A program made the translations under genes and the position numbers. This document shows positions 2,346 to 10,940 of a stretch of DNA of 64,000 nucleotides, piece after piece (within the stretch, counting starts at the first letter, position 1; each line of letters starts with the position of its first letter). The stretch is from Sphingomonas sp. C3-2 (lineage in GTDB: Bacteria > Pseudomonadota > Alphaproteobacteria > Sphingomonadales > Sphingomonadaceae). The DNA lies in assembly GCF_033025475.1 (NCBI RefSeq), contig NZ_CP130322.1, positions 186,001-250,000 of the forward strand, written 5' to 3'. The notes beneath the pieces were generated by a model. The model saw nothing but the letters and a program-made list of their open reading frames with translations. It had not been told where the DNA came from and did no database searches.

Positions 2346-3251
2346 ATGCGCATTGCTTTCATGGGAACCCCCGATTTCGCCGTCCCGACGCTCGACGCCC
2401 TTGTCGGCGCCGGTCATGATGTCGTCGCCGTCTACAGCCAGCCGCCCCGCCGCGCGGGCCGCGGCAAGGCGCTGTCGCCCACGCCCGTCCATCGCCGGGC
2501 GGAAGAGCTTGGCATTCCCGTCATGACGCCGGTTTCGCTGAAAGGTACCGAGGAACAGGCCGCCTTTGCCGCGCTGGATCTCGATGTCGCGATCGTCGCG
2601 GCTTACGGCCTCATCCTGCCGCGCGCCATTCTCGATGCGCCGCGCCATGGCTGCCTCAACGTCCACGCCTCGCTCCTCCCCCGCTGGCGCGGCGCGGCGC
2701 CCATCCACCGCGCCATTCTGGCCGGGGACGAGACGACCGGCGTTACCATCATGGGGATGGAGGCCGGGCTCGACACCGGGCCGATGCTGGCGACGATCAA
2801 AACGCCCGTTGACGCCAAGACGTCGGGCGAACTCACCGCCGAACTCGCCGCCAGCGGCGCGACGCTGATGGTCCGCGTGCTGGCCGATCTTCCCACGTAC
2901 CCGCCCGTCCCCCAGCCCGAGGACGGCGTCACCTATGCCAGCAAGATCGACAAGGCCGAGGCGCGGATTGACTTCACCCACGCCGCCGACGCCATCGAGC
3001 GCCAGATCCGCGCGTTCAACCCGCTGCCCGGCGCCTTTTTCGAACATGGCGGCGAGCGCATCCGCATCCTTGAAGCCAAAGTAGAAGCGGAGAGCGGTGC
3101 CCCCGGGAGCGTGATCGACGACACGCTCGGCATCGCCTGCGGCACGGGGACGCTCCGCCCCGTGCTCGTCCAGCGCGCCGGGCGCGGCGCCATGGCGCCC
3201 GCCGATCTGCTGCGCGGTTATCCGATCCCCAAGGGCACGGTGCTCGCATGA
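2346..3251 (+). CDS. fmt: Methionyl-tRNA formyltransferase
   Basis: Transfers a formyl group from 10-formyl-tetrahydrofolate to initiator Met-tRNA. The 301-residue product starts [16 protein letters not shown] and has the formyltransferase signature SLLPRWRG at residues 109-116, with the catalytic triad N105, H107 and about D143 (GLDTGPML). The C-terminal tRNA-binding domain is present ([10 protein letters not shown]-like [15 protein letters not shown] near residue 200). The ATG at 2346 is preferred over one 12 bases upstream because the protein family starts there. Its stop overlaps the truA start (ATGA), so the two are co-translated. No peptide deformylase gene is next to it in this window. 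Confidence 0.97.
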
Positions 3252-3991
3252 CGCGCTATGCGCTCACGGTTGAATTTGATGGCCGCCCCTTCATGGGCTG
3301 GCAAAGGCAGGCGCACGGCCCCTCGGTGCAACAGACGATCGAGGATGCCGCGCACAAGCTGACTGGCGAGCCGGTTGTCGTCCACGCCGCGGGGCGCACC
3401 GATGCGGGCGTGCACGGCGTGGGCATGCGCGCGCATCTGGAGATCGAAAAGCCGCTGACCGCGTTTCGCCTGATGGAGGCGCTCAATTCGCTGATGCGCC
3501 CCAATCCGGTCGCGATCCTCGACTGCGTGCCCGTGGCCGATGACTGGCATGCGCGCTTTTCTTGCACGGGGCGGCGCTATGAATATGTCATCGTCAACCG
3601 CCGCGCGCCGCTGACGCTCGACAAGGGCCGCGCCTGGCGCGTGATCCACCCGCTTGACGCAGGCGCCATGCACGATGCCGCGCAAAGACTGGTCGGACGC
3701 CATGACTTCACGACCTTTCGCTCGGTGCACTGCCAGTCCGAAAGCCCGCTAAAGTCGCTCGACCGTCTCGATGTCGAACGCGATGGCGATAACGTCGTGA
3801 TCCACGCGGCCGCGCGGTCCTTCCTGCACCACCAGGTGCGCTCGATGGTCGGCTGCCTCGCGCTGGTCGGTCAGGGACGATGGAGCGCGGACGACCTGCA
3901 GGCCGCGCTTGAAGCCTGCGACCGCGCGGCGCTGGGCCTCAACGCGCCGCCCGACGGGCTCTATTTCGTCGAGGCGACCTACCCCGCCTGA
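3248..3991 (+). CDS. truA: tRNA pseudouridine(38-40) synthase TruA
   Basis: Converts uridines 38-40 of the anticodon arm to pseudouridine. The 247-residue product has the catalytic motif GRTDAGVHG at residues 49-57 with nucleophile D52, the [12 protein letters not shown] strand, and the conserved C-terminal [11 protein letters not shown] segment. It begins inside the fmt stop codon (ATGA) and so belongs to an fmt-truA operon. Its 3' end overlaps the oppositely oriented asparagine-synthetase-like gene by 13 bases. Confidence 0.97.
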
Positions 3992-5802
3992 CGGCCCGGG
4001 CCGAACAGCCTTGCAAGGGTTCGGTCGAGGATCAGAAGCTGCCATAGCAGCGCGCCGTGGTCGGCGCGGCCGTCGAGATGCGCGTCGATCAGCGCGGTCA
4101 GTTCGGCCCGGTCGAACCGGCCGCTCTCGATCAACGCCGAGCGGTCCGCCAACCGCCGGATCGCGGGGGCCAAAGGCCCACGCAGCCAGTGCGCCACGGG
4201 CGGCGGCGTTTCGCGTGCCTCTGCACCAATCACCTCTCCGGGCAAATGCCCTGCCATGGCGCGGCGCAACAGCCATTTGCCCTGCCCGCCACGCTGACGC
4301 GCACGTGCGGATTGCGACCGCGCGAAATCCATCATGTCGCGGCTAAGAAAGGGCAGATGCAGCGCGATGCCCGCGGCCTCGGCGCTGCCTTCATGGCGTC
4401 GCAGCACATTGGCGGGGAGTTCGATCACGATGTCGGCATATTGCGCCCGCGCCATCGGATCGCCCGAGGCAGCCTCCATCGCCTCGAAATAGCGCTGCTC
4501 CGCCCGGTAATCGCCCATTTCCTGTTGCGTCCTGGCGCTCAGCAAGCCGCGGCGGGCCTCGAACGACGTCGCGATCCGTGCTTCGACCGCGCGCAGGATG
4601 GCGGCCTCTCTGACGCGAGATGAAATCGAATTTATTCGATTATTTTTAAAAACATTACTGGCAATCTTTAAAATATTTTCGAGAATGTGATTGTTCGGAT
4701 AAAGTCCATGGTCGCCGAAAAACTCGTCGCCCCCCGCCCCCGCCAGAACATCCCCGACATGCTCCGCCGCAATCGCGGTGCGGCAGAAGCGACCAAGCGC
4801 CTCGACATCGCCCTGCGGTTCATCGAACGCGGTGACAAAGGCATCGATCGACGCCAGCATCTGTTCGCTGGGCAGGCCGACTTGCTTATGCGCGGTCGCG
4901 TAGCGTTCGGCGAGCGGCGCGGTCGCGGCATCGCCCTGCGCCTTGCCATCCCAGCCGGGATCGATCGCGAGTGTCGGCACGGCGCGGCTGCTCGCCTCCG
5001 CCATCAGCGCGACGATGGCCGCGCTGTTCACGCCGGTTTCGACCACCGTTCCGGCAGTACCCGAATGTGTGACCTGCGCGATCGATGCGCGCAGTGTTTC
5101 CAGCAAAGCGGGCGCACCTGCCCTGGTGTTGGCCTTCTCATCGATTTTGAACTGCGCATCCCACCAGCGCACGGGCACGGGCAGATCGCGCCCCCGCTCG
5201 ACGATGAGGTAATGACCGGCCGGCAGCTTGTGGACCCCGGCCAACAGGCAATTGTCATCGGGGACGAAGCCAAGCGCCAGATAATCGTCGAGCGCCGTTA
5301 CGTTTATCTGCTTTCGAAACAAGGGGTTGGTAGCAAGCCCGGACAGGCTGGACGAAAAGACAAGCGCGCCGTCCGCCATGGCCGCAAGATGGAGCGTGCG
5401 GACGCCGACGCGGTCCCGCGCCAGAAACAGCCGCTGATTGGCGCCGTCATGGAGCGCAAGGACGAACTTGCCCTCAAGCTGCTGAAGCAGCTTCGGCCCG
5501 CTGTACCGCCAAAGGCGCGCGATCAGTTCGGCGGGGCTGTCCCCGTCGAACCCCTCGCCCGTCTCGGTAAGCATGGTGCGGAGGTCAGCGGCATTATAGA
5601 GCCGCCCGTCGAACGCGACGGCGATCTGGCCGGCATCGTCGGCCCAAATATCGGCGTCCTTGGCCGCGCCCAGCCCCAGCCCGGCGGTACCCCAGCTTCG
5701 GGCGGTCGCATGGGCATGGACATTCGCGCCCAGCGCCATCGCCTCCACCCGCGCGAGCGAAACGGGCTTGGGCGTACCGAGATGAAATGCACCTGAAATC
5801 AT
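3979..5802 (-). CDS. Asparagine synthetase-like protein with degraded active sites
   Basis: 607 residues with the two-domain layout of glutamine-hydrolysing asparagine synthetases. The N-terminal glutaminase domain lacks the catalytic Cys2: the protein begins MISGAFHLG where active members have MCGI. The C-terminal synthetase domain keeps the [16 protein letters not shown] segment (354-369), but the ATP-pyrophosphatase loop SGGxDS reads ETGVNS at 255-260. Both half-reactions therefore look lost, which suggests a scaffold or a changed chemistry. A low-GC patch at 4614-4680 encodes residues about 375-396 ([16 protein letters not shown]), unlike the surrounding codon use, and the upstream gap is also AT-rich. 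The start lacks a clear ribosome binding site. It is the last gene after the decarboxylase and ligase. Fold assignment is firm; function is unknown. Confidence 0.8.
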
Positions 5803-5846
5803 TATATTACAGAATGATAATTTGCATTTATTACACTCAACATGAA

Positions 5847-7076
5847 CTAATCGAGCAGGATTTCAGGCGCCGGGCCATGGCCGAGAAACGCCGAGGGGCT
5901 GGCGCTGGCGCCATATGCCCCGGCCATGAACACCGCGACGATATCGCCCACCGCGCCGCGCGGCAGGAAGACCTGATCGCCCAGCTTGTCGAGCGGGGTG
6001 CACAGGCAGCCGACGACATTCACGACCTCCGTGCCTTCCGCACCGAATTGACTGGCGAGCGCGAGCGGATAGTTGCGCCGCACCACCGTGCCGAAATTGC
6101 CGCTTGCCGCCAGCTGGTGATGGAGGCCGCCATCGGTGACCAGAAAGGTTTCGCCGTGGCTCGATTTGCGGTCGAGGATGCGGGTGAGATAGACGCCCGC
6201 CTCGCCCACCAGCCAGCGGCCAAGCTCGATGGCAAAGCCGGTCGCTTCGAAACCGCTGGGTAGGGCCGCCAGCGCCTCCCCCAGCGCGGTGCCGATCCGT
6301 TCGATATCGAGCGGCTTTTCATTGGGGAAATAGGGGATGCCGAACCCGCCGCCGAGATTGACGTGCGGGGCCGCTGTGCCGATTTCCGCGCTGAGGCGCA
6401 CCGCGAGCGCCAGCGTGGCGGCCTGGGCATCGACCAGCGCCTCCGCATCCAATGCCTGCGAACCGCCATAGATGTGAAAGCCGTGCCATTCGGCCCCCGC
6501 GCCGATAATCCGCTTCGCCAGCGCGGGCACATCGACGGCGTCGACGCCAAAGGCGGTGGGGCGGCCGCCCATCCGCATCCCCGATCCCTTCAATTCGAAA
6601 TCGGGATTGATGCGGATCGCGAGCTTGGGGCGCAGCCCGAGCCCCGCGCCGATCGCGATCGCGCGGTCGATCTGGCGTTCGGATTCGCAATTGAGCGCGA
6701 CGCCCGCACGAATGGCGGCCTCGATCTCGGCATCGCGCTTGCCCGGCCCGGCAAAGGACATGGTTTGTGGCTGCGCCCCGGCATCGAGGGCAATGCGCAT
6801 CTCGCCCACCGACGCCACATCGATCCCGTCGGCGATCTCGACCATCAGCCGGACGAGCGGCGCGAAGGGGTTGGCCTTCATCGCATAATGGAGCGCGAGC
6901 CGTTCGGGCATCGCCTGCCGCAGGCTGTGCATCCGCGCGCGCAGCATGGCGCCGTCATAGACGAAGAGCGGGGTTTCGCCCGCGGCGTCCACGATCGCGC
7001 TTGCCGTCTTGCCGCCAATCAGCAGCTCGCCATCCTGAGCGGTGAATGCGGCGGGAACGGTTCCCATCGGCTTCAT
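5847..7076 (-). CDS. PLP-dependent decarboxylase, exosortase-A-associated type
   Basis: Fold-type III PLP enzyme of the ornithine/diaminopimelate/arginine decarboxylase group, 409 residues. The PLP lysine is K67 in HYAMKANP; GIDVASVGEMRIAL and the glycine-rich HVNLGGGFGIPYF strand follow, with the C-terminal cysteine motif GCLCTPLDKLG at about residue 345. Its close pairing with the AMP-forming ligase (ATGA overlap at 7073-7076) is the pair I know from exosortase A loci (TIGR03098/TIGR03099 families); the substrate is not established. It probably decarboxylates an amino acid, possibly one activated by the ligase and held on the carrier protein encoded at 9659. No lysA-style context is present, so lysine biosynthesis is unlikely. 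Confidence 0.85.
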   Translation of the reverse strand: MKPMGTVPAAFTAQDGELLIGGKTASAIVDAAGETPLFVYDGAMLRARMHSLRQAMPERLALHYAMKANPFAPLVRLMVEIADGIDVASVGEMRIALDAGAQPQTMSFAGPGKRDAEIEAAIRAGVALNCESERQIDRAIAIGAGLGLRPKLAIRINPDFELKGSGMRMGGRPTAFGVDAVDVPALAKRIIGAGAEWHGFHIYGGSQALDAEALVDAQAATLALAVRLSAEIGTAAPHVNLGGGFGIPYFPNEKPLDIERIGTALGEALAALPSGFEATGFAIELGRWLVGEAGVYLTRILDRKSSHGETFLVTDGGLHHQLAASGNFGTVVRRNYPLALASQFGAEGTEVVNVVGCLCTPLDKLGDQVFLPRGAVGDIVAVFMAGAYGASASPSAFLGHGPAPEILLD

Positions 7077-8587
7077 GCGGCATACTCCTGACGGATCGCG
7101 GTGCGATCCAGCTTTCCATTGGGGTTGCGGGGTAAATGATCGACGAAACGGATCTCGCGCGGGAACATATAGCCGGGCAGTTCGGCCTTGATCCAGGCGG
7201 TCAGACGCGCATGGGCGTCCTCTTGCGAAAGCCCCTCCGGCGCGCGCGCGATGAGCAGGATCGCCTGCCCCAGCCGGTCATCGGGCACACCGAGCGCGAC
7301 GGCTTCGGCAACGCCGCCGCTCGCGATCGCGGCTTCCTCGATCTCGGTGGGGCTGACGCGGTTGCCCGCAGCCTTGATCATTTCGTCGGCGCGCCCCGAA
7401 AAGCGGAGCAAGCCTTCGGCATCGCGGACCACGGTGTCGCCCGACCACACGGCCACCCCGCCCAGCTGCGAGGCGGCGGGCGCGGGCTTGAAGCGTTCGG
7501 CGGTCCGTTCGGCATCGTTCCAATAACCTTGGGCGACGAGCGGCCCGGCATGGACAAGCTCACCCGGTTCATCGTCTGCGGTGAGGCTGCCATCGGGGCG
7601 AACGACCAGGATCTCGGCAAAGGGAATGGCCTTGCCGATCGACGAAGGATGCGCGTCCGTCAGGCCCGGATCGAGATAGGTCGAGCGAAAGGCCTCGGTC
7701 AGGCCGTACATGAGGTAGAGCGCGGCATTGGGGAACAGCGCGCGCAGGCGCCGGACCATCGGCACGGGGAGCGCGCCGCCGGTATTGGTGAGGCGCCGGA
7801 TACTGGCGGCGGTTTCGTCGGCCCAGTTCGCCTCGGCGAGCTGCACCCAGAGCGGCGGCACGCCCGCGATGCTGGTGACGCCAAAGCGTTCCACCGCCTT
7901 GATGACGTCACGCGGCGTCAGATAATCGAGGGGCACCGCGCAGGCGCCCGCCGCCCAGGTCGAAAGCAGCTGGTTTTGCCCATAATCGAAGCTGAACGGC
8001 AGCGCGCCCAAAACCTTGTCGTCGGGCTGCACCTTCAGATAATGCGCCACGCTCACCGCGCCGAGCCAGAGATTGGCGTGGCTGAGCATCACCCCCTTGG
8101 GCCGGCCGGTCGACCCCGAGGTGTAGAGGATTTCGACCAGATCGAACGGGTCGTGCGCCGATGGCGGCATGACGGCGTCGCCGGGCAGTGCATCCTCATC
8201 GGTCTCCACCGCGCAATCGCCGAGATCGGCTGCGCTCAGCATCGCGGCGCGCGCGGGCTGGGTGATGAGCAGCCGTGCGCCGCTGTCCGCCAGAATATGC
8301 GCGACCTGCGCGTGCTTCAGCAGCGGATTGACCGGCACATAGACGAGCCCGGCGCGCGCCGCCGCCAGTGGCAGGATCACCGCAGCGCGCGTCTTGGGGA
8401 GCCAGGCCGCGATGCGATCACCGGGCTTCAACCCTTTGGCAAGGAGCCCGCTGGCATAGCGCCCTACCCAGTCGTCCAGATCGCCATAAGTCAGCGTTCC
8501 GAAGCGCGCGTCGACGGCAGTCGCGTCGCGATCGCCACCAAGAACGAGATGATCGAGCGGCTTTGGATCAGGCGATGGGGCTTGCAC
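7073..8587 (-). CDS. AMP-forming acyl/amino-acid ligase, exosortase-A-associated type
   Basis: ANL-superfamily adenylating enzyme, 504 residues. It has the P-loop-like YTSGSTGRPKG motif at about residues 155-165, the MYGLTEAFRSTYLDP aromatic/Thr-Glu motif, the SGDT/SGRADEMIKAAGNRVSPTEIEE hinge and the C-terminal lysine in NPNGKLDRT. The wording around YGLTEAFRSTYL is characteristic of the ligases found with exosortase A. I place the start at GTG 8587 because a perfect AAAGGAG lies six bases upstream; the longer frame adds 13 residues containing that site. It overlaps the decarboxylase by ATGA and is divergent from the acyltransferase-like/ACP pair across only 53 bases, implying shared control. 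The substrate to be activated is unknown. Confidence 0.87.
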   Translation of the reverse strand: MQAPSPDPKPLDHLVLGGDRDATAVDARFGTLTYGDLDDWVGRYASGLLAKGLKPGDRIAAWLPKTRAAVILPLAAARAGLVYVPVNPLLKHAQVAHILADSGARLLITQPARAAMLSAADLGDCAVETDEDALPGDAVMPPSAHDPFDLVEILYTSGSTGRPKGVMLSHANLWLGAVSVAHYLKVQPDDKVLGALPFSFDYGQNQLLSTWAAGACAVPLDYLTPRDVIKAVERFGVTSIAGVPPLWVQLAEANWADETAASIRRLTNTGGALPVPMVRRLRALFPNAALYLMYGLTEAFRSTYLDPGLTDAHPSSIGKAIPFAEILVVRPDGSLTADDEPGELVHAGPLVAQGYWNDAERTAERFKPAPAASQLGGVAVWSGDTVVRDAEGLLRFSGRADEMIKAAGNRVSPTEIEEAAIASGGVAEAVALGVPDDRLGQAILLIARAPEGLSQEDAHARLTAWIKAELPGYMFPREIRFVDHLPRNPNGKLDRTAIRQEYAA

Positions 8588-8640
8588 TGGGGCTCCTTTG
8601 AGGGGCAACGAGAAACAGACTGACATCGGGGGATAGCGAC

Positions 8641-9618
8641 TTGTGGGTTAAGGGGGAATATTTCGACGATTTCGATCGTGCAGAAATTGCAGCGCGCGGC
8701 GTGCTCGATCGCGACGCGCAGCCCCGGCTGTTCGACCGGATCGCGTGGTTTCGCGCGGTCTGGGAAAACGCCCCGGTCGAAACCCGCCCCATGATCCTGC
8801 GCGCTACCGCCGGAAAGGCGCAGGCCTGGCTGTTCCTGACGCGCGGCGCCAACGGCGTCCTGTACGCGCTCACCACGCCCGAAAGCGCGGCGTTCCGCCC
8901 GATCTTCGTGAATGCCGATGACGCGACATGCCCCCGCCTGCTCTTCCCGCTGGTCCGCCGTCTGCGCCAATTGCGCGGGGTCGTCCGCGTCGAGCTGCCC
9001 TCGGTGCCGGTGGATGACGGCAGCGCAGAATTGGTTGCCCAGGCGTTCACCCGCGCCGGATGGGCCGTCCGCCGCCGCCCCGGGCGCGTGGCACTTTCAG
9101 GCGTAGCCGGCGAATTGCGGCCCGTTCCGGACGACACCCCAGCGCCCATCATCACCCAAGTGCCCGATACCCAGAGCTGGAACGCGCTGACGGCAGGCGC
9201 TGGGGGCGAGGCGCTTGCCGCGCTCGACACGCTCAAAGCCATTGCCGAGCAGGAAGGCGCAGCGGGCACGTTGCGTATCGGCCTTCTTCCCGCTTCCGCG
9301 GCCGGGGATGGTTGCATTGCCGCGCAAATCTGGCTGGTCGATCGCGGGCACGCGACGCTGCTTCATACCACATCGCCGTGCGGGGACGTTCAGGCCCAGC
9401 AGCTGTTGGCAGCACAGCTTCACAACCATGTCATCACCCATGACGGCGTGACGTCATTCACCGCCAATGCGCTGTTTTCTGGCCTTTCGCTTCCCTTCCT
9501 CACCAACACGCAGGAAAGCGAAAATCTGTCCGCCTATAATGGGCGCAGATTGGCAAATGCGGGAAATGTGATCGCCGCGAAGATCGAAAATCTTGTGCGC
9601 AGCCATCGCTTGAATTAG
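8641..9618 (+). CDS. Acyltransferase-like protein (possible GNAT/FemAB-CelD type)
   Basis: 325 residues with a TTG start, supported by a GGGGGA ribosome binding site seven bases upstream and no in-frame upstream alternative with a better site. There is no signal peptide and no membrane segment. The N-terminal half (about residues 8-160) has the WFRAVWE...RPMILRAT pattern of FemAB/CelD-like acyltransferases, and the C-terminal half has a GNAT-like strand series around IAAQIWLVDRGHATLLHTTS. The typical C-terminal motif is not clear, so the family call is tentative. It is followed after 40 bases by the acyl carrier protein gene and is divergent from the ligase, so it is the likely transferase that uses the carrier-bound group. 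Confidence 0.5.
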   Translation: MWVKGEYFDDFDRAEIAARGVLDRDAQPRLFDRIAWFRAVWENAPVETRPMILRATAGKAQAWLFLTRGANGVLYALTTPESAAFRPIFVNADDATCPRLLFPLVRRLRQLRGVVRVELPSVPVDDGSAELVAQAFTRAGWAVRRRPGRVALSGVAGELRPVPDDTPAPIITQVPDTQSWNALTAGAGGEALAALDTLKAIAEQEGAAGTLRIGLLPASAAGDGCIAAQIWLVDRGHATLLHTTSPCGDVQAQQLLAAQLHNHVITHDGVTSFTANALFSGLSLPFLTNTQESENLSAYNGRRLANAGNVIAAKIENLVRSHRLN

Positions 9619-9658
9619 GAAGCCCGCCAAATTTTCGGGTCCATTCAGGGGAAATTGC

Positions 9659-9931
9659 GTGACAAGTGCTGCTGCCGTCCAGGTCGAAGAAGCGGTCCGT
9701 GCCGTTCTCACCGAAGTTCTGGGTTTGGACGCCGACCGGGTTGCCGGTTTTGACGCGGATACCCCGCTGTTCGGCGCGCTGCCCGAACTCGATTCCATGG
9801 CCGTGGCCAGCCTGTTGACCGAGTTGGAGGATCAGCTCGACATCATTATCGATGATGATGAGGTGGACGGCGAAATGCTCGAAACCTTCGGCAATCTCAC
9901 CGCCTTTGCGGTCGCCAAGAAGCTGGGCTGA
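9659..9931 (+). CDS. Acyl carrier protein (dedicated, not AcpP)
   Basis: 90-residue acidic helical protein. The phosphopantetheine attachment site is S46 in LPELDSMAVASLL, preceded by the usual DTPLFGAL segment. The GTG start at 9659 follows AGGGGA at a good distance. It differs from the fatty-acid AcpP (no DSLD motif) and resembles the free-standing carrier proteins that sit next to AMP-forming ligases in exosortase A and exopolysaccharide loci. It is downstream of the acyltransferase-like gene and probably carries the group activated by the ligase at 7073-8587. Confidence 0.88.
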   Translation: MTSAAAVQVEEAVRAVLTEVLGLDADRVAGFDADTPLFGALPELDSMAVASLLTELEDQLDIIIDDDEVDGEMLETFGNLTAFAVAKKLG

Positions 9932-9977: not shown

Positions 9978-10940
9978 TCAGGCCGGTTCCATCACGAAAT
10001 CGGCTTCCGCCAGAAAGCGTTCGGCGTCCAGCGCCGCCATGCAGCCGGTTCCGGCCGCCGTCACCGCCTGACGATAAACCTTGTCCATGACGTCACCGCA
10101 GGCGAACACGCCGGGAACGCTGGTGCGCGTCGATCCGGTTTCGACGTCAAGATAGCCTTCGCTATCAAGCCGCAGATGTCCGCGGAAAATTTCGGTCGCC
10201 GGCGAGTGGCCGATGGCGACAAAGGCGCCGTCGGTATCGATGGTCGACAGCGCGCCCGTCTCGGTATCGCGCAGCTCGACGCCGACCAGACCTTCGGGAT
10301 CACCGTCACCGACGAAACGCTCGACCGTCTTGTTCCACAGCACCTTGATGTTGGGGTGCGCGAACAGGCGTTCCTGCAGGATCTTTTCCGCACGCAGCGA
10401 ATCGCGGCGATGGATCAGCGTCACATCCTGGCTGTGGTTGGTGAGGTAGAGCGCTTCCTCAACGGCGGTGTTGCCGCCGCCGATGACGACGACCTTCTTG
10501 CCGCGATAGAAAAAGCCATCACAGGTTGCGCAGGCGGACACGCCCTTGCCCTGCAGCAGATTTTCGCTTTCCAGCCCCAGCCAGCGCGCCGACGCGCCGG
10601 TGGCGATCACCAGCACATCGCCGGTATAGACCGTGCCGCCATCGCCGATCAGGCGGAACGGACGCTGGCTCAGATCGACCTCAACGATCGAATCATACAT
10701 CATCCGCGCGCCGACATGCTCGGCCTGCGCCTGCATCTGTTCCATCAGCCACGGGCCCTGGATCACATCCTTGAAGCCCGGATAATTTTCCACATCGGTG
10801 GTGATCGTCAGCTGACCGCCGGGCTGCATGCCCTGCACGACGATCGGCGCCATGCCCGCCCGGGCACCGTAAATGGCGGCGGTCAGTCCGGCCGGTCCGG
10901 AACCAAGGACCAGCATGCGGGTGGAATGGGTGGCGGTCAT
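9978..10940 (-). CDS. trxB: Thioredoxin reductase
   Basis: NADPH-dependent flavoenzyme that reduces thioredoxin. The 320 residues show the FAD-binding GSGPAG at 13-18, the MQPGGQLTITTDVENYPGF segment, the redox-active CATC (C137, C140), the NADPH-binding GGGNTA (154-159) and the C-terminal GDVMDKVYRQAVTAAGTGCMAALDAERFL. It ends convergently to the carrier-protein gene. The 96 bases separating it from the end of the next minus-strand gene upstream presumably carry its promoter; no clear regulator site was seen. Confidence 0.97.
   Translation of the reverse strand: MTATHSTRMLVLGSGPAGLTAAIYGARAGMAPIVVQGMQPGGQLTITTDVENYPGFKDVIQGPWLMEQMQAQAEHVGARMMYDSIVEVDLSQRPFRLIGDGGTVYTGDVLVIATGASARWLGLESENLLQGKGVSACATCDGFFYRGKKVVVIGGGNTAVEEALYLTNHSQDVTLIHRRDSLRAEKILQERLFAHPNIKVLWNKTVERFVGDGDPEGLVGVELRDTETGALSTIDTDGAFVAIGHSPATEIFRGHLRLDSEGYLDVETGSTRTSVPGVFACGDVMDKVYRQAVTAAGTGCMAALDAERFLAEADFVMEPA

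Follow-up and report, generated by a model that had tools for sequence, protein, structure and literature searches.

A putative carrier-bound route from aspartate to beta-alanine at a trimmed exosortase A locus of Sphingomonas sp. C3-2

The subject of this analysis is a set of five genes in a 64,000-nucleotide stretch of the Sphingomonas sp. C3-2 genome (contig NZ_CP130322.1, positions 186,001 to 250,000; hereafter the window, on which all coordinates without another label are counted), which form the remainder of an exosortase A (XrtA) exopolysaccharide locus. All five are confirmed as real and intact open reading frames, and they lie in two divergent units, as an original prediction made from the DNA letters had described. 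The minus strand carries a 607-residue amidotransferase-like candidate pseudoenzyme (3979..5802), a relative of the XrtA-system amidotransferase TIGR03108; a pyridoxal phosphate-dependent decarboxylase of the BtrK type (5847..7076), belonging to TIGR03099 and here proposed to be an aspartyl-ACP alpha-decarboxylase (ACP, acyl carrier protein); and an AMP-forming ligase (7073..8626), belonging to TIGR03098 and proposed to be an aspartate:ACP ligase, for which the GTG at 8587, preceded by AAAGGAG, is a likelier start than 8626. On the plus strand follow a 325-residue GNAT-like candidate pseudoenzyme with a TTG start (8641..9618), whose homologues are PF13480 acetyltransferases, and a dedicated ACP (9659..9931, PF00550) with a putative phosphopantetheine serine, Ser46, in the motif ELDSM. 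The divergent intergenic region between GTG 8587 and TTG 8641 spans the predicted 53 bp (8588..8640), and a consensus promoter scan returned no promoter-like match within it. We refer to the ligase, the decarboxylase and the ACP together as the trio.

The genes are flanked on the left by truA (3248..3991, plus strand, PF01416) and on the right by a Pyr_redox_2 gene (9978..10940, minus strand) that we take to be trxB, and these two neighbours mark a home position shared with relatives. In the other four species of the genus, truA adjoins the amidotransferase gene, which in turn adjoins an exosortase, so that the full order reads truA, amidotransferase, exosortase, further genes, decarboxylase and ligase, and then GNAT and ACP; trxB neighbours the module in many relatives, three of these four species among them, with G149 as the exception within its examined stretch. 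Across the five genomes of the genus the decarboxylase exceeds its family cut-off in 5/5 and a PF09721 exosortase occurs in 4/5, the window genome being the only one without. This genome consists of one 3.53 Mb contig with a completeness of 99.98%; a search of the whole of it with TIGR03109 and PF09721 finds no exosortase, which extends the predicted absence beyond the window. An XrtA locus directly adjoining the window had been named as an observation that would speak against an exosortase-free module; there is none in this genome, but in all four sister species the exosortase sits about 10 kb from the decarboxylase. What such a locus holds when intact can be seen in G107, where ten proteins were tested against profiles: an XrtA-EpsI fusion (TIGR03109, 340.5 bits) and an XrtA-system glycosyltransferase, FemAB protein, ATPase, chain-length and export proteins all exceed their cut-offs, as does hydrolase 1, sited beyond the ACP, while a tyrosine kinase stays under its own (200.2 versus 230.65) and two of the ten are without a match. 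Between truA and trxB the window carries none of these exosortase and exopolysaccharide locus proteins. It thus has, at the home position, an XrtA locus in trimmed form.

What remains at the locus falls into three conserved genes and two decaying ones. When divergence between the window and its sisters is expressed relative to divergence among the sisters, the ligase (0.99), the decarboxylase (1.18) and the ACP (1.33) move at close to the housekeeping pace of truA (1.02), fmt (1.01) and trxB (1.16); the ratio is 1.79 for the GNAT and 3.5 for the amidotransferase. Among positions kept by at least 95% of 53 relatives, the ligase departs at one, the decarboxylase at two and the ACP, in which S46 is invariant, at none. 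The amidotransferase-like protein scores 337.9 bits against a TIGR03108 cut-off of 816.9 (the sister protein L086 reaches 936.9), reads MISGAF where MCGIAG is expected, with loss of Cys2, and has ETGVNSA for the ATP motif SGGVDSS, in agreement with its earlier description as a dead enzyme. Two other exosortase-less loci, L094 (7438-9315) and L104 (4809-6632), encode full-length amidotransferase-like proteins (TIGR03108 511.7 and 526.1) that both lack Cys2, one with SGGVNSS and the other with DGSADTA as ATP motif. The GNAT-like protein of the window has no Pfam or NCBIfam match, PF13480 included, to be compared with PF13480 matches of 64-75 bits in 5/5 homologues tested, and it departs from 42 homologues at 18 positions on which at least 95% of them agree, including the SWK and GTGDDxYKxDWM stretches; on visual inspection just two other GNATs seem degenerate, those of L035 and L041, where an exosortase is likewise not nearby. 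Both decayed frames are nevertheless open and coding-like at third codon positions, and crude neutral simulations, with substitutions but without indels, kept each frame open in 0/300 runs at a GC of 0.65, and the GNAT frame in 2/300 at 0.70. The two proteins may thus be maintained pseudoenzymes. Because the GNAT has lost conserved residues, the transfer step assigned to it by the original prediction is unlikely in the window genome, and with 18 conserved positions gone we rejected it as an acting acyltransferase there.

A separate feature of the amidotransferase-like gene is that some 70 bases (4630-4700) of its otherwise G+C-rich sequence are rich in A+T, with promoter-like matches at 4645-4674; a local insertion, or drift of the decayed protein, may be the cause.

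The same division recurs across the wider genome set, for which family, class and phylum serve as kinship labels. Among 149 family genomes the decarboxylase exceeds its cut-off in 124, and a PF09721 exosortase is likewise found in 124. The exosortase lies within 40 kb of the decarboxylase in 87 of the 124 decarboxylase genomes, farther away or on another contig in 24 and nowhere in 13, the last two counts being inflated by contig breaks. At the 37 loci without a nearby exosortase, ligase and decarboxylase are found in 37/37, the ACP in 32/37 and the GNAT in 7/37, namely in the window, L035, L055, L057, L105 (in two frames), L121 (partial) and L124. The ACP is unmatched in L111, L115, L116, L117 and L121, the last of which ends at a contig end; in the other four the carrier may be elsewhere or divergent. 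Counted by genome, a GNAT match occurs in 72/87 genomes with a nearby exosortase versus 8/37 without (p=1.4e-10, a test that ignores kinship), a count that may overlook diverged copies, since the query was the degenerate GNAT of the window itself; in G034 the match is sited away from the trio. A set of 40 loci, in 37 of which all four genes are present (exceptions L041, L049 and L050), are uninformative on the rate of GNAT absence because they were picked by GNAT match. The idea that the five genes form one functional unit is therefore rejected: with the GNAT found in only 7 of the 37 exosortase-distant loci and not found in 30, three genes are conserved and two decay. The two-frame GNAT of L105 (G070, 7848-8870), in a genome without exosortase, could be a disrupted copy or reflect an error of assembly.

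In a sample of 398 genomes from the phylum the decarboxylase exceeds its cut-off in 30, of which 11 do not belong to the family. The complete trio fits within 20 kb in nine of these 11 loci; within that span the ligase was not found in L166 and the ACP was not found in L167. A weak two-sequence model found no exosortase in the 11 stretches. A scan of contigs of named organisms with a single decarboxylase sequence gave four loci only, so that the comparison with named organisms is thin.

The prediction that ligase and decarboxylase are of the exosortase A kind is borne out by the curated NCBIfam cut-offs, the ligase scoring 637.7 against 592.35 for TIGR03098 and the decarboxylase 543.5 against 478.45 for TIGR03099; both families are curated as hypothetical equivalogs and named after their neighbourhood. 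At full length the ligase matches many adenylating enzymes, many acyl-CoA ligases included. At E<=1e-8 its pocket segment (residues 190-340) retrieves just four PDB sequences, two of VinN together with 5jjp and 7dq5, and we rejected a fatty acyl-CoA ligase on these matches. We recognise the four as presumably stand-alone beta-amino acid adenylating enzymes that load stand-alone ACPs, and take the codes to belong to VinN, IdnL1/CmiS6 and HitB. The residues of VinN that bind 3-methylaspartate, which we assume to be D230, S299, K330 and R331, fall with a constant offset of 16 on the chain letters D246, S315, K346 and R347, and these align with D214, T282, F313 and R314 of the window ligase (numbered, like K505, on the 517-residue protein). 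The pocket Asp, Ser/Thr and Arg are common to both enzymes, and the window ligase has Phe for VinN's Lys. D214 and R314 are present in 77/77 family and 16/16 other aligned ligases (93/93), and position 282 is Ser or Thr in 77/77 and 15/16. In 5jjp and 7dq5 an Ala occupies the position of VinN R347 and ligase R314; adenylating enzymes of this kind are described in a review as taking beta-amino acids that bear a methyl, alkyl or phenyl group rather than a second carboxyl (PMC11284099). By alignment, the ligase pocket matches that of VinN-type enzymes, by which (3-methyl)aspartate is placed on a carrier and only then decarboxylated. The decarboxylase in turn has as its best PDB match BtrK, the L-glutamyl-[BtrI ACP] decarboxylase, at 245 bits versus 138 for the next family, and by profile BtrK leads with 335 versus 210. 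Of the earlier interpretation, a carrier-protein module of the exosortase A kind that lacks its exosortase is supported, and the loading of an amino acid on the carrier followed by its decarboxylation is the best reading of that module.

Vitamin B5 and coenzyme A both incorporate beta-alanine, and the distribution of the usual source of this compound, the aspartate decarboxylase encoded by panD (searched as PF02261), is complementary to that of the trio. The window genome has panC, and panD was not found in it. Only 6/149 family genomes carry panD, none of the 124 decarboxylase-positive ones versus 6 of the other 25 (Fisher p=1.3e-5, ignoring kinship). To these we added 54 chosen genomes, comprising 18 positives (11 outside the family, 7 within), 16 with sub-threshold homologues only and 20 decarboxylase-negative. 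The 18 positives again lack panD, so that it occurs in 0/142 tested genomes with a decarboxylase over the cut-off; it is present in 6/16 of the sub-threshold genomes (6/8 outside the window's class, 0/8 inside) and in 5/20 decarboxylase-negative genomes of the order and class. Outside the window's class alone, the comparison is 0/9 for decarboxylase-positive genomes versus 6/8 for those with sub-threshold homologues only (p=0.0023).

The gene panC is present in 142/149 family genomes. Of the seven that miss it, five are at least 96% complete and are all without trio and panD, and two are incomplete (85% and 66%). Four genomes with fragmentary decarboxylases (G007, G018, G135 and G143) are set apart in the combined panD/panC count, having been kept among the 25 in the plain panD test, and the combined comparison then gives 1/124 versus 11/21 (p=3.9e-10), the single case being G082, 66% complete. 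The 21 trio-negative family genomes comprise 6 with panD, 5 without either gene and 10 with panC and without panD. One lineage offers an apparent natural replacement of the trio by panD: G127 keeps only a degenerate GNAT beside trxB (L041, 8836-10832), with no trio in that 20 kb and no decarboxylase over the cut-off, and has panD elsewhere in its genome, and in its congener G050 the trio is present and panD was not found.

From these observations we propose that the trio is a carrier-bound aspartate-to-beta-alanine module that replaces PanD, a reading we hold to be reasonably probable. The ligase would adenylate L-aspartate and attach it to holo-ACP through the side-chain carboxyl; the BtrK-type decarboxylase would then take off the free alpha-carboxyl to give beta-alanyl-S-ACP; and beta-alanine released from the ACP would be passed to PanC, the trio thereby taking the place of the absent PanD. 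One could also speculate that beta-alanyl-ACP might be pantoylated directly instead of being released. In relatives that keep XrtA, the GNAT may put part of the beta-alanyl group on exopolysaccharide. In the window genome the XrtA and exopolysaccharide block was lost and GNAT and amidotransferase gave up their conserved residues, whereas the trio would have been retained as the supplier of the cell's beta-alanine. A broader version, to which we give slightly less than an even chance, would make the trio a general Pseudomonadota pathway from aspartate to beta-alanine and the main route to the vitamin B5 precursor in sphingomonads. It would have originated as a module for polysaccharide decoration, or been recruited into one, rendered PanD unnecessary and survived the loss of the exosortase repeatedly, while its neighbours became maintained pseudoenzymes.

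The chemistry and the protein families involved are known; the assignment to primary metabolism is what we propose as new. In a survey of 204 alphaproteobacteria, aspartate decarboxylase (ADC, panD) is listed in 37 and uracil degradation is proposed instead (PMC7142369); its rows seen for Novosphingobium, Sphingobium, Sphingomonas and Sphingopyxis give ADC as 0, and PYD3 as 0 in all but two (PMC7142369). The beta-alanine source of sphingomonads thus looks open in the portion of that survey seen (PMC7142369), and our proposal would answer it together with the role of TIGR03098 and TIGR03099. If true, it would also extend carrier-protein decarboxylation beyond antibiotic starter units to the supply of coenzyme A, and account for the persistence of these genes at places without the exosortase. 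In the open-licence literature we found no paper linking exosortase genes with pantothenate; exosortase and beta-alanine together brought up, in the matches seen, a Geobacter transcriptome paper only, and neither the papers listed for panD, aspartate decarboxylase or BtrK nor those listed for beta-alanyl and carrier protein describe, by title or opening of the abstract, a route of this kind. An exosortase-associated amidotransferase is placed in a polysaccharide cluster in excerpts of a paper on Sphingomonas LM7 exopolysaccharide, in which the words 'decarboxylase' and 'acyl carrier' do not occur (PMC11340318).

Several observations weigh against a beta-alanine supply by the trio. The Fisher tests take no account of phylogeny, and common ancestry links most of the 124 positives. 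The ten trio-negative genomes with panC and without panD (G012, G020, G022, which is 67% complete, G024, G063, G093, G106, G118, G134 and G137) imply that another source exists or that the correlation is partly chance, and since 15/20 decarboxylase-negative genomes also lack panD, its absence alone says little in this class. PYD1, PYD2 and aminotransferases are listed in many of the sphingomonad rows seen in the survey (PMC7142369). No thioesterase belongs to the trio, and no panB or panC was found among the trio neighbours tested. L111, L115, L116 and L117 have no ACP match within 20 kb, and their ligases and decarboxylases are lower-scoring. In the pocket, F313 replaces VinN Lys346. Finally, XrtA-associated hydrolases 1 or 2 occur in 4/6 outside-family loci with neighbours tested, so that polysaccharide decoration may be the older role.

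This last point is one of those favouring the strongest alternative, in which the product of the trio, an omega-amino-acyl-ACP (beta-alanyl or gamma-aminobutyryl), serves solely to decorate a surface glycan or lipid, another transferase takes over after exosortase loss and the absence of panD is a coincidence of lineage. The decarboxylase does lie within 40 kb of an exosortase in 87/124 family genomes, 72 of these 87 with a GNAT match, but in 30/37 exosortase-distant loci the GNAT was not found and no substitute was identified, their neighbours not having been systematically annotated, and neither the 0/142 for panD in trio genomes nor the contrast outside the window's class fits a coincidence well; we regard decoration alone as unlikely. 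The same chemistry could instead act on glutamate and yield a gamma-aminobutyryl-ACP as in butirosin biosynthesis, as BtrK, the nearest solved decarboxylase, would suggest; the resemblance of the ligase pocket to that of VinN, a 3-methylaspartate enzyme, and the panD complementarity, which points to beta-alanine, make this improbable in comparison with aspartate. That the whole locus is a decaying relic without present function in the window genome, as the loss of conserved residues in GNAT and amidotransferase might suggest, is very improbable, and for the trio we rejected it on divergence ratios near those of truA, fmt and trxB, with departures at only one, two and no invariant positions, even the decayed pair keeping open frames that neutral simulation at a GC of 0.65 did not preserve.

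The carrier-bound conversion of aspartate that we favour has its closest described counterpart in the vicenistatin pathway, where, according to the same review, VinN loads 3-methylaspartate on VinL and VinO then decarboxylates the thioester, with FlvN taking aspartate (PMC11284099). As described there, the vicenistatin (VinN/VinL/VinO) and fluvirucin (FlvN) systems share with the trio a stand-alone adenylating enzyme and a stand-alone ACP, and would share with it an aspartate-type acid as substrate and a pyridoxal phosphate decarboxylase acting on the thioester (PMC11284099), the likeness of VinO to the window decarboxylase being drawn from its described role. Unlike the trio, the Vin system makes an antibiotic and, by that account, feeds a polyketide synthase through VinM and VinK; in the interval searched, from truA to trxB, no gene for a further adenylating enzyme or an acyltransferase corresponding to these two is present. 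The trio also resembles BtrI/BtrK of butirosin biosynthesis in that the nearest solved decarboxylase acts on an amino-acyl carrier protein, and differs in that butirosin uses glutamate; BtrJ, the butirosin ligase, is moreover of the ADP-forming ATP-grasp type, whereas the ligase of the trio forms AMP. With XrtA/PEP-CTERM exopolysaccharide loci (TIGR03098, TIGR03099, TIGR03108, TIGR03100) the window locus shares ligase and decarboxylase family members and the position of the intact sister locus; unlike them, the window interval is without exosortase and exopolysaccharide genes, and its amidotransferase and GNAT lack the conserved residues. That stand-ins for PanD exist is shown by a Desulfovibrio study (PMC10102598), and such enzymes (PanP-like DVU0867 and the beta-alanine synthase of uracil degradation) are like the trio in that the proposed product would be beta-alanine for PanC (PMC10102598, PMC7142369). 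They act on free aspartate or ureidopropionate, whereas the trio would need a carrier protein and ATP.

Three further loci, L175, L176 and L177, have sub-threshold BtrK-like decarboxylases accompanied by several ligase homologues. The pocket letters of these ligases, YGLTECHRC, look nearer still to YGQTECKR of VinN, and the loci are possibly natural-product clusters.

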